A DNA stretch of 64,000 nucleotides, taken from contig NZ_MSCJ01000001.1 in the NCBI RefSeq assembly GCF_002954615.1, positions 806,001 through 870,000 on the forward strand, in the 5' to 3' direction. This document shows positions 45,321 to 50,000 of the stretch, one piece after another. The notes under the pieces are model-generated. The model worked only from the letters and a program-made list of their open reading frames with translations, had not been told where the DNA came from and did not search any database. This stretch comes from Photobacterium angustum. GTDB lineage: Bacteria > Pseudomonadota > Gammaproteobacteria > Enterobacterales > Vibrionaceae. Made by a program: the position numbers and the translations under genes. Every line of letters begins with the position of its first letter. Within the stretch, counting starts at the first letter, position 1.

Positions 45321-46844
45321 ATGCTATTTTCCATGGTACGTATTAGTACGCCTTCACTTTCCGAAATAAAGTCTTACAGGGCTATATTCACGCTATTTTT
45401 TATTATCTTTTTTACTTTACCTGCTCAGGCAATTCCATTGGTTGGCTCAGCTTGTTTGATCCGTCACGGTGATAAAGTCGTCGTTATAAAAGAAGAAATA
45501 TCAAATAAATTAGCCTTACCTGGTGGGCAGATTGTTCCTGAAGATTCTCCTGAGCAAGCGGCTGTACGTGAAGTTTATGAAGAAACTGGTATTCATGTTG
45601 ATGCGGTGAAATTGCTAAAATTACGAGGTAACACAACGTTATTTGCGTGCGTTGCGAAACATCCCATTCCAACGACAGTGATCTCGTCTTATACCCAACC
45701 GTTAACAACGACAGAAAGTGATGATTTGCTAATTAGTACTTGGCAAGCGAAGCATTTTACCAAAGAAGTGAAGCGTGCATATTTACTGTCAGTTGAAAAT
45801 ATTACGCCAAAAGATTATCGCTACCCTAATGATGTTCCATTGATCCAACACTTATTATCACAAGTGCCCAATAGTGAAATTACTACCAATGCTGCAGATT
45901 ACCATGCGGTGAGTAGGTTACATCAATGGGAGTTGACACATATTAAGGTGTTTCAACAAGAAATTAAATCGATGCCTAACAGTTACCAATCATTTTTTCA
46001 ACGAGTGATATCTGTGTTTAACTTACCTGGTGAAAAGTTGTTTATTGGTTTGTTATTACTCGTTGTTACCGTCGGCTTTGGTGTCACAGCAATGTTGTAT
46101 TTATCAAGTGTGCTCGTGTCTGTCACTTTTATTGCTTCGGTAATGAAATTAGCATTAGCATCACCTCGTCCATTTTATATTTGGCCTGAGTTACAACAAA
46201 CAGCAGCCAGTGGTTTTGGTTTGCCGAGCGGCCATACACTAATGGCAACGGTACTATGGGGACTACTTTGGTACAATTTACCGTTGCTGATTCATCGCTA
46301 TCGACCTCACTTTACTTCAAACCTAATAGCGTTTCGCTTAAAGACACTGCCGCTGTTGATTATTGCGATTAGTTTACAAGCTATCGCAAGGGTTTGGCTC
46401 GGTGTGCATTTTATCTCAGATACGTTACTTGGCTTGGGGGTTGGGATAGTGCTTTTAGTCTTGCTTATTTGGTGGCAACGTTCAGGCTTAGCCTATCAGC
46501 TCGTTCGTAATTGGCGGTTTTGGGCACTGCTTAGCGTGATAATCGCTCTTGGTGTGAGCTATTTTCAAGTTCCTCAGCAAGTGTATTTATTGGCCTGTAC
46601 GCTTGCAATGAGTACCGCGGTCTTTATTGATAGAGGCCGATCACGACAAACAATTACTTACCCTCAAAAAATAAAATTAGCAGTGGTGCTACTAGGCTCT
46701 GTAATGGCGATTGGATTTTTGAGCTCATTATGTGTAGAGCTCGTGATAAGTACAGTCGCTATATTATTGATAAAAACATTAACTATTATCGTCATGGTTA
46801 TGGCGTGCGTACTGATGACAGTGCATAGCTACCGTTTGAAATAA
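45321..46844 (+). CDS. exported NUDIX hydrolase - PAP2 phosphatase fusion
   Basis: A 507-residue two-domain membrane enzyme. An N-terminal hydrophobic segment (~20-37, AIFTLFFIIFFTLPAQAIP) looks like a cleavable signal ending AQA. Residues ~40-170 are a NUDIX domain with the box GGQIVPEDSPEQAAVREVYE followed by ETG; the first Glu of GX5EX7REUXEE is Asp. A linker to ~235 leads to five or six membrane segments bearing the PAP2 motifs KLALASPRP, LPSGHTLMA and ARVWLGVHFISD. Both active sites would then face the periplasm. Substrates may be lipid-linked diphosphates or extracellular nucleotide derivatives; this is inference. Stand-alone gene before ydiJ. Confidence 0.87.
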   Translation: MLFSMVRISTPSLSEIKSYRAIFTLFFIIFFTLPAQAIPLVGSACLIRHGDKVVVIKEEISNKLALPGGQIVPEDSPEQAAVREVYEETGIHVDAVKLLKLRGNTTLFACVAKHPIPTTVISSYTQPLTTTESDDLLISTWQAKHFTKEVKRAYLLSVENITPKDYRYPNDVPLIQHLLSQVPNSEITTNAADYHAVSRLHQWELTHIKVFQQEIKSMPNSYQSFFQRVISVFNLPGEKLFIGLLLLVVTVGFGVTAMLYLSSVLVSVTFIASVMKLALASPRPFYIWPELQQTAASGFGLPSGHTLMATVLWGLLWYNLPLLIHRYRPHFTSNLIAFRLKTLPLLIIAISLQAIARVWLGVHFISDTLLGLGVGIVLLVLLIWWQRSGLAYQLVRNWRFWALLSVIIALGVSYFQVPQQVYLLACTLAMSTAVFIDRGRSRQTITYPQKIKLAVVLLGSVMAIGFLSSLCVELVISTVAILLIKTLTIIVMVMACVLMTVHSYRLK

Positions 46845-46939
46845 GTACTTTCAAGGTGGAAGTGGCAGTGACAAGCAATGATTGTTTGTTTTGTTCTATC
46901 GCGTTGTAAGGTAAAGTAAAGTGATAATAATATCTAAAA

Positions 46940-46967
46940 TTGATTTGCCGATGATCGAATTTATAAC
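46940..46967 (+). promoter_or_regulatory. putative ydiJ promoter
   Basis: TTGATT (46940-46945) and TATAAC (46962-46967) are 16 bases apart. A start near 46974 would give a leader of about 85 bases that includes the three-way junction. Confidence 0.45.
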
Positions 46968-46998
46968 GATCAGGCTATAAATATTAAATGAGAGAAGG

Positions 46999-47058
46999 CC
47001 AGTAGTCGTAGGACACGACTCCGCTATAAGTGATAGCGTACACTGGAGAAGGAGCACA
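46999..47058 (+). promoter_or_regulatory. structured ydiJ leader: three-way junction next to the ribosome site
   Basis: Stem P1 is CCAGT (46999-47003) with ACTGG (47042-47046). Inside it P2 is AGTCGT (47004-47009) with ACGACT (47015-47020), loop AGGAC; P3 is CGCTAT (47022-47027) with ATAGCG (47033-47038), loop AAGTG. All 17 pairs are Watson-Crick, and junction strands are 0, 1 and 3 bases. The Shine-Dalgarno AGAAGGAG (47047-47054) touches P1. CTCC at 47019-47022, partly inside P2/P3, could instead pair with GGAG of the ribosome site, giving an alternative off state. Looks like a small cis-regulatory RNA; the ligand or protein is unknown. Confidence 0.55.
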
Positions 47059-50000
47059 ATGTTACCAGCATTAACCCATCAGCACAGTATCGAGCAACTG
47101 GTGCTGTCATTCCTTGACGATTTATCCGCGGCAGGTTTTCGAGGCGAGATAGAGAAAACCTATGCGAGTCGACTCGCTGTTGCGACAGATAATAGCGTCT
47201 ATCAAGTTATTCCTCAGGCCGTTATCTTACCTAAAGATATCGATGATCTGGTGTTAATTGGTCAAATTGGTCAACAGAAAAACTATCAAAAAATCACCTT
47301 TTCTCCTCGTGGGGGCGGTACGGGAACCAATGGCCAATCATTGACTCCTGGTGTAGTAGTCGATATTTCACGCCATATGAATAAGGTACTGGAAGTTAAT
47401 CCTGAACAAGGTTGGGTTCGAGTACAAACAGGTGTCGTAAAAGATCAACTTAACGATGCGTTACGTCCTCATGGCTATTTTTTCTCTCCTGATTTATCAA
47501 CCAGTAACCGCGCTACCGTGGGCGGTATGATCAACACTGATGCTTCGGGTCAAGGGTCGTTAAAATACGGAAAAACGTCTGATCATGTATTGTCGTTAAC
47601 GGCAGTCCTTGTTGATGGCTCAGTATTAAAAACTGAAGCATTAGATGAGACGCAAATAGAGTCGATATCAGGTGATGACCTTGCTGCAAAAGTGGTTAAA
47701 ACCTCTGCGCAAATATGTCGTGAAAAACGCCAACAAATTATCGATAAGTTTCCCCCTCTTAACCGCTTTTTAACGGGTTATGATTTAAAAAATGTTTATG
47801 ACGATGGACTAACACAATTTGATATTGGTCGTTTGTTGTGTGGTGCAGAAGGTTCGCTTGCGTTTATTGCAGAAGCGAAACTGAATATTACGCCGATCCC
47901 GAAATCACGAACGCTTGTGAATATTAAATACGATAGCTTTGATTCAGCGCTACGTAATGCGCCAATGATGGTTGAAGCTAAAGCACTGTCGGTAGAAACC
48001 ATCGATTCCAAAGTATTGAATCTCGCAAAACAAGATATTGTTTGGAACACTGTTAGTGACTTATTAACCGATGTGCCTGGCAAAGAAATGCTTGGGATTA
48101 ATATGGTTGAGTATGCAAGCAACGATATTGCCGAGAACCAACAACAAGTAAAAGCACTGTGTGAGCGACTCGATGCCATGATAACGGCAAATGAAGCAGG
48201 CATTATTGGCTATCAAGTTTGTGAAGAGTTGGCGAGCATCCAAAAAATTTACACTATGCGTAAAAAAGCCGTGGGTTTATTGGGTGCAGCAAAAGGTAGT
48301 CAAAAACCTATCGCATTTGCTGAAGATACCTGTGTACCTCCTGAAAACTTAGCTGATTTTATTGCTGAATTCCGTCAGTTACTTGATGAAAAGCAATTAA
48401 ATTATGGCATGTTTGGTCACGTTGATGCGGGTGTTTTACACGTTCGCCCGGCACTTGATATGTGCGATCCAGAGCAAGAGCGCTTGATGAAAGAAGTCTC
48501 TGATCAAGTTGTTGAGCTGGTGGCAAAATATGGCGGATTGATGTGGGGCGAGCACGGTAAAGGCTTCCGCTCTGAATATGGCCCGGCTTTCTTTGGTGAT
48601 GAGTTATTCACAGAATTACGTCGAATAAAATCTGCGTTTGATCCACACAACCGTTTAAACCCGGGTAAAATTTGTACGCCATTAGAGAGCGATGATCAAT
48701 TAGTGAAGGTTGATGATCGTAAACGTGGTTTTTATGATCGTCAGATCCCCGTAACAACGCGAGATAGTTTTAAACAAGCGATGGAATGTAATGGTAATGG
48801 CTTGTGTTTTAACTACGACACAAGCTCACCTATGTGTCCATCGATGAAGATCACCGCAGATCGTCGCCATTCTCCGAAAGGGCGAGCAGGACTGGTTCGC
48901 GAATGGCTACGTCAATTAGCAGAGCAGGGCGTTAATGCGGATGAGTTAGAACATAAGTTATTGACCACGACACCGACGATTAAACAGATTATTGATCGTC
49001 TAAAAAATACTTATGGGGAACGTCGTAAGCAGTATGATTACTCCCATGAAGTGATGGAAGCGATGAATGGCTGTTTGGCATGTAAAGCCTGCGCAAGCCA
49101 ATGTCCAATCAAAGTGGATGTTCCAAGCTTCCGCTCTCGCTTCATGAATATTTATTACAGCCGCTATCAACGCCCAGCGAAAGATTATTTAGTCGCGTAT
49201 GTTGAAAACTATTTACCGTTAATGGCTAAAGCACCTGGGGTGATGAATGCCTTAACACGTCCAGAGTGGTCGAAAAAGCTAACTGAAAAAGCGATTGGGT
49301 ATGTTGATATGCCGTTATTGTCATTGCCGACATTAACCGAGCAACTTGATGGACACCATGCGCTGCGTTTTGATCTGCAATGGTTACAAGCGCTATCAGA
49401 GCAAGAGCGTCAGAATTATGTACTGATTGTTCAAGATCCGTTTACCAGCTTCTATGATGCCGAAGTGGTAAAAGATTTCATTATTTTGACTGAAAAACTG
49501 GGTAAAAAGCCAATTTTGGTGCCATTTAAACCAAATGGTAAAGCGCAGCATGTAAAAGGTTTCTTGCGTCAGTTTGCGAAAACCGCTCGTAACACCGCTG
49601 ATTTCTTGAATCAATTAGCCGTGCTCAATATTCCAATGGTGGGCGTCGATCCAGCGCTTGTACTTTGTTACCGCGATGAATACGCTGAAGTATTAAAAGA
49701 AACCCGTGGTAACTTTGAAGTGTTAACCGCACATGAGTGGTTATTACCATTACTGCCAGAGTTAAAGCAATATCAAGCGACAGAAGAACAACCTTGGTAT
49801 TTATTTGCTCATTGTACTGAAAAAACCAAGATGCCTAATGCTGAAAAGCAATGGGGGACGATATTTAGTCACTTTGGTATAGCGCTTCAATCTGTTGCGG
49901 TTGGTTGCTGTGGTATGGCTGGAACATTCGGTCATGAAAAAGATAAGTTAGAGACCTCTAAAGGGGTGTATAACCTAAGCTGGAAACCGAATATCGATAA

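Follow-up and report, generated by a model that had tools for sequence, protein, structure and literature searches.

Immediately before the ribosome site of ydiJ in Photobacterium angustum lies a compact predicted RNA fold, and the question raised by this locus is whether the fold controls ydiJ and, if it does, what recognizes it. A preliminary description of the window (the whole stretch of 64,000 nucleotides that was analysed) read the fold as a perfect three-way junction and suggested a small riboswitch or a protein-binding leader. The identity given there for the target gene is borne out: the ydiJ product scores 1714.6 bits against NF049975, where the cut-off is 1350. D-2-hydroxyglutarate, the substrate of this dehydrogenase, arises as a by-product of SerA, an enzyme of serine synthesis (PMC9504171). 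The gene before ydiJ (window 45321-46844, + strand) encodes a NUDIX domain fused to a PAP2 phosphatase domain. From the comparisons reported here, the ydiJ leader element is real and conserved, and it is most likely a CsrA operator of a known kind; a riboswitch is not supported.

Predicted fold of the leader

The MFE fold matched the preliminary description in most respects: it contains three stems at the same positions (Table 1), of 5 (P1), 6 (P2) and 6 (P3) base pairs, Watson-Crick throughout, with two five-base loops, and the ribosome site starts on the very next base after the outer stem. The P3 strands occupy 47022-47027 and 47033-47038, around the loop AAGUG. The junction is not strictly “perfect”, since 47021 and 47039-47041 are unpaired.

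Table 1. Features of the ydiJ leader and gene, with positions counted from the first base of the window
Feature	Position	Strand	Basis or remark
Weak promoter-like match	46904..46931	+	Only + strand hit (2 hits in all); shuffled expectation 0.9
P1, 5' strand CCAGU	46999..47003	+	MFE fold; near-invariant in Photobacterium, CCC with matching GGG in Vibrio
P2, 5' strand	47004..47009	+	MFE fold; pairs change with compensation among relatives
P2 apical loop AGGAC; GGA at 47011-47013 is the proposed upstream CsrA site	47010..47014	+	Putative site; GGA kept in aligned leaders and predicted to be unpaired
P2, 3' strand	47015..47020	+	MFE fold; alignment of relatives
P3 hairpin CGCUAU/AUAGCG	47022..47038	+	Insertion in the angustum/lucens group; MFE fold
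P1, 3' strand ACUGG	47042..47046	+	Adjoins the ribosome site; MFE fold; alignment of relatives
Shine-Dalgarno AGAAGGAG; GGA at 47051-47053 is the proposed second CsrA site	47047..47054	+	Sequence
ydiJ, D-2-hydroxyglutarate dehydrogenase, 1020 aa	47059..50121	+	NF049975; Pfam FAD_binding_4, FAD-oxidase_C

Taken alone, the single-sequence fold is weak evidence, its stability being only slightly above chance. The MFE of the leader is -16.5, where shuffled versions average -11.95 (z -1.73), and 10 of 200 shuffles were equally good; for a wider segment of 181 nt, z was -1.05 and 26 of 200 shuffles did as well. It is the comparison among relatives, with its compensatory changes, its retained GGA loop and its linkage to ydiJ, that places the element beyond chance. 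Across five sequence contexts, predicted pair probabilities were about 0.8-1.0 for P2 and P3 and varied with context for P1 (about 0.3 to 0.99), and the GGA of the P2 loop was unpaired with a probability of at least 0.95. In the predicted ensemble, the 60-nt piece leaves the ribosome site open, and adding coding sequence pairs part of it; the Shine-Dalgarno GG is then unpaired with a probability of only 0.06-0.20. Since these bases are mostly paired in that setting, other structure may limit translation too.

Several further readings were tried and set aside. Transcription attenuation was rejected because a scan of positions 46800-47120 found nothing resembling a terminator. The promoter-like match in Table 1 is indistinguishable from chance. 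A phage origin was rejected, as none of 50,697 phage records matched the 461 bases searched. The preliminary description did not recognize a named RNA family, and the search agrees with it: window positions 46000-48000, compared with 4227 Rfam families, gave two matches (snoRNA, E 8.5 and 9.4), both off the element and below the gathering score, so that membership in an Rfam family was rejected.

Conservation and linkage to ydiJ

Among 247 Vibrionaceae genomes, 241 have a ydiJ match by protein search, and the region itself was recovered from 34 of 99 relatives by DNA search. The scan of ydiJ loci confirmed 147, of which 80 were retained; the closest among the retained loci come from Photobacterium sp. 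GB-56 and P. angustum. Two alignments were built from trimmed leaders. Alignment A1 holds 37 of 40 Photobacterium leaders, three exact repeats having been dropped, and alignment A2 holds 34 of 44 Vibrio-type leaders after removal of nine exact repeats and the mis-trimmed L136.

In A1, P1 (CCAGU/ACUGG) is kept, with 97.8% of cells paired and a nearly invariant sequence, and P2 with its GGA loop is kept with few exceptions. Under a structure that we specified, 95.4% of cells pair, compared with a shuffled mean of 92.3, and 15 cells are changed on both sides, compared with 1.1 in shuffles (compensation is counted throughout per sequence, not per evolutionary event). The both-side changes fall in three pairs (two of five in P2 and one of five in P1), and 7 of 500 shuffles did as well; further pair types show no excess (8 versus 8.8 in shuffles). 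RNAalifold, run unaided on A1, returned P1 only and not P2, and P2 in that alignment rests on the specified structure. The Vibrio-type leaders of A2 have the same architecture in other sequences: P1 is CCC/GGG and P2 mostly GCUGA-UNGGA-UCAGC. Here 98.7% of cells pair, both-side changes occur in five of nine pairs (0 of 500 shuffles), and RNAalifold recovers P1 and P2 unprompted. Compensatory changes among homologous leaders, which the preliminary description had proposed to look for, are present in both alignments. The stem sequences of Photobacterium and Vibrio are wholly different, and what the two have in common is the architecture and the loop GGA alone.

The alignments indicate that the conserved unit is smaller than the three-way junction, namely a short P1 beside the ribosome site that encloses one GGA-loop hairpin, P2. 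P3 has the window's form in 4 of the 37 A1 leaders (the angustum/lucens group) and a different, shorter form in six (the kishitanii/aquimaris group). The other 27 lack it, which argues against the junction as the functional unit that it had been taken for.

The loop triplet is retained while the stems around it change. GGA is present in the P2 loop columns of 36 of 37 Photobacterium leaders and 34 of 34 Vibrio-type leaders, 70 of 71 in total, from alignments out of which L096 (Photobacterium sp. JCM 19050) and the Salinivibrio leaders L094, L099 and L110, with MFE folds lacking a GGA loop, had been left beforehand. Among 88 distinct leaders, which come from 140 loci, 76 fold so that an apical loop ahead of the ribosome site contains GGA, compared with 334 of 4400 shuffles in which the last 18 bases were preserved. 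By a simpler stem rule, a GGA hairpin of at least 4 bp is found in 79 of the 88 and one of at least 5 bp in 74. With starts placed heuristically, ydiJ is the only one of 50 predicted genes in the window to have a GGA hairpin of at least 5 bp at -60 to -20; at 4 bp or more there are two.

Genome-wide searches tie the element to ydiJ. In the whole genome from which the window comes, the A1 covariance model found one strong site, at ydiJ (E 2.7e-10; the next, 4.4). The same model matched 50 of 52 Photobacterium genomes at E 0.01 or better, and in 49 of the 52 a comparison of coordinates placed the match directly before ydiJ; the genome G008 was matched and stood outside that comparison, its ydiJ position being absent among the matches listed. 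Two genomes, G037 and G044, have no ydiJ match; the model gave no hit in G044 and only E 0.2 or worse in G037. For the A2 model, a manual count gives matches at 1e-5 or below in 88 of 118 Vibrio genomes, and the best 10 loci in Vibrio all precede ydiJ. The ydiJ alignment at locus L192 covers the protein only from residue 65, and its frame agrees with a start 2 bases downstream of the motif.

Thirty Vibrio genomes had no A2-model match at 1e-5, and 28 of them have ydiJ. Ten of these 28 divergent leaders pass the GGA-hairpin rule (5 bp) and 18 fail it, with L212 and L215, which have little sequence upstream of the assumed start and were examined in part, counted as failing. Loss of the stems where ydiJ remains, which the preliminary description had named as grounds for rejection, is seen in this minority of Vibrio. 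In the Vibrio leaders L214, L216, L198, L203 and L209 the stem survives in place and the loop GGA is absent. Some Vibrio ydiJ frames (L197, L199, L200, L202, L206) apparently begin at an earlier ATG, which would give an N-terminal extension, and a GGA hairpin precedes that ATG. The Salinivibrio leaders (L094, L099, L110) carry a different hairpin before the ribosome site, with a GGCA loop in the MFE fold; L094 passes the looser stem rule through a GGA despite an MFE fold without a GGA loop. In other families of the order, no GGA hairpin, even at 4 bp, was found in any of 27 ydiJ leaders, which were drawn from 43 non-family genomes with a ydiJ match and whose starts were placed by tblastn. The proposal that the element is common to ydiJ across the order was rejected as far as these 27 leaders go. 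To judge from these leaders, the element is widespread in Vibrionaceae and has undergone loss or change in some Vibrio.

A candidate CsrA operator

The pairing of a GGA loop with a nearby Shine-Dalgarno that also contains GGA recalls the layout of glgC, and it points to a CsrA-type operator. Our analysis suggests that the ydiJ leader is probably such an operator, recognized by CsrA (RsmA), with CsrA repressing translation and CsrB relieving the repression. P1 and P2 together would display GGA in a hairpin loop shortly upstream of the Shine-Dalgarno. A CsrA dimer would dock on the P2 loop, bridge to the Shine-Dalgarno and exclude the 30S subunit, leaving ydiJ repressed; CsrB-type sRNAs would titrate CsrA, and ydiJ would then be translated. 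We infer the binding of CsrA, the repression and its direction, and the relief by CsrB. The GGA in the ydiJ Shine-Dalgarno is what predicts repression, although GGA is ordinary in a Shine-Dalgarno and the second site is for that reason weak evidence.

Components of the CsrA system are present in these genomes. CsrA was found in all 20 of the genomes searched, and the window's genome (G000) has four CsrB (RF00018) matches above the Rfam cut-off. Three of these lie in tandem at C1:2285902-2287701 (L149-L151) and one at C3:731967-732266 (L152). In one Vibrio genome (G101), GCUGAUAGGAU is common to a CsrB hairpin and the ydiJ hairpin. The two RNAs are alike in that CsrB has GGA-loop hairpins, some with a UAGGAU core, in the same genomes; they differ in that CsrB is a many-site decoy in which UUGGA loops are rare.

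In E. coli glgC, a loop GGA lies upstream of the Shine-Dalgarno, and bridging by CsrA is reported over 10 to 63 nt (PMC7652899). In the window, 37 nt separate the loop GGA of ydiJ from the Shine-Dalgarno GGA; the distance is shorter in the Photobacterium leader L076, which has no P3 (21 nt), and in the Vibrio leader L107 (17 nt), and all three values lie within that reported range. The ydiJ leader resembles glgC in having a hairpin-loop GGA just upstream of the Shine-Dalgarno, a second (here predicted) site on the latter, and a spacing that would allow bridging. However, glgC has four CsrA sites, whereas the ydiJ sites are predicted, with a loop that is mostly AGGAY or UNGGA and not ANGGAN, and the ydiJ hairpin is enclosed by the outer stem P1 (PMC7652899). 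A study of V. cholerae CsrA states that good binding requires two GGA on one strand (PMC11633198). The toxR 5' UTR treated there is from the same family and has several GGA and two-site CsrA binding, as predicted for ydiJ; in contrast, toxR is subject to activation and has no GGA in its Shine-Dalgarno, whereas that of ydiJ has it. In V. alginolyticus, respiratory and TCA genes are repressed by CsrA (PMC12298160, PMC8624728), and a target that is a flavoprotein dehydrogenase is in keeping with this.

The bases that flank the loop GGA fit this reading only in part. The CsrA loop consensus is given as A(N)GGA or ANGGAN in two papers (PMC4066749, PMC7652899). Among leaders that have a GGA hairpin, A(N)GGA is present in 28 of 34 from Photobacterium and 22 of 45 others, and two bases ahead of the loop GGA there is usually U instead of the consensus A. 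Of 48 distinct CsrB contexts in the window's genome, 9 have U at that position, as do 31 of 115 stem-loop GGA from 11 CsrB matches in five Vibrio genomes, so such loops do occur in natural decoys. UUGGA, common in Vibrio ydiJ loops, accounts for 2 of those 115. A flank profile made from the genome's own CsrB failed as support for CsrA: 75% of the 913 GGA in the window, on both strands, score as high as the P2 loop. The near-invariant P1 sequence in Photobacterium is not explained by CsrA.

A search of open-licence literature turned up no paper linking ydiJ with CsrA, and the passages searched in Vibrio CsrA studies and in a P. profundum RNA-seq study do not mention ydiJ or its dehydrogenase. 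If the CsrA reading is true, disposal of D-2-hydroxyglutarate would be placed under the carbon-storage regulator for many members of a large marine family. The leader's dozens of natural variants would also form a compact set in which to test what loop bases are tolerated by CsrA.

Other readings of the leader

A metabolite riboswitch, with D-2-hydroxyglutarate, 2-oxoglutarate or a similar ligand, is a tempting interpretation of a conserved structure that adjoins the ribosome site of a metabolic gene, and one that the CsrA reading, if true, would correct. The element is about 40 nt long with one conserved loop triplet, the A1 and A2 alignments contain no conserved aptamer core beyond P1, P2 and GGA, and no aptamer-like sequence is common to both genera. 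The switch proposed in the preliminary description, in which CTCC pairs with the GGAG of the ribosome site, was rejected because CTCC is present in only 3 of the 37 A1 leaders. With the missing terminator-like site and the 27 leaders of other families in which the element was not seen, these results make a riboswitch very improbable. Of the two options named in the preliminary description, a conserved cis-acting element of the protein-binding sort is thus favoured, and the riboswitch is not.

It is unlikely that a factor other than CsrA, whether another protein or an sRNA acting through the GGA loop, recognizes GGA and controls ydiJ translation. We know of no protein besides CsrA with a GGA-loop rule, which counts against such a binder, and the complete difference in stem sequence between the two genera disfavours a fixed sRNA seed. 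In favour of it are loop flanks that are not specially CsrB-like, the nearly invariant P1 of Photobacterium, and the listing of ydiJ among the targets of the GcvB sRNA in one source (PMC8534726). Put more broadly, the leader could be a dedicated Vibrionaceae regulatory RNA, read by a non-CsrA protein, an sRNA or a ligand, in which a (U)NGGA loop is framed by an outer stem, a third stem provides tuning in some lineages, and D-2-hydroxyglutarate oxidation is coupled to some signal; this we regard as unlikely. A passive hairpin, serving mRNA stability or the spacing of the ribosome site without any specific binder, is improbable given that the loop GGA is kept in 70 of 71 aligned leaders and is far more frequent in leader folds than in shuffles, even though some Vibrio keep the stem while GGA is absent. 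Such leaders (for example, L214 and L216) are natural variants missing the site.
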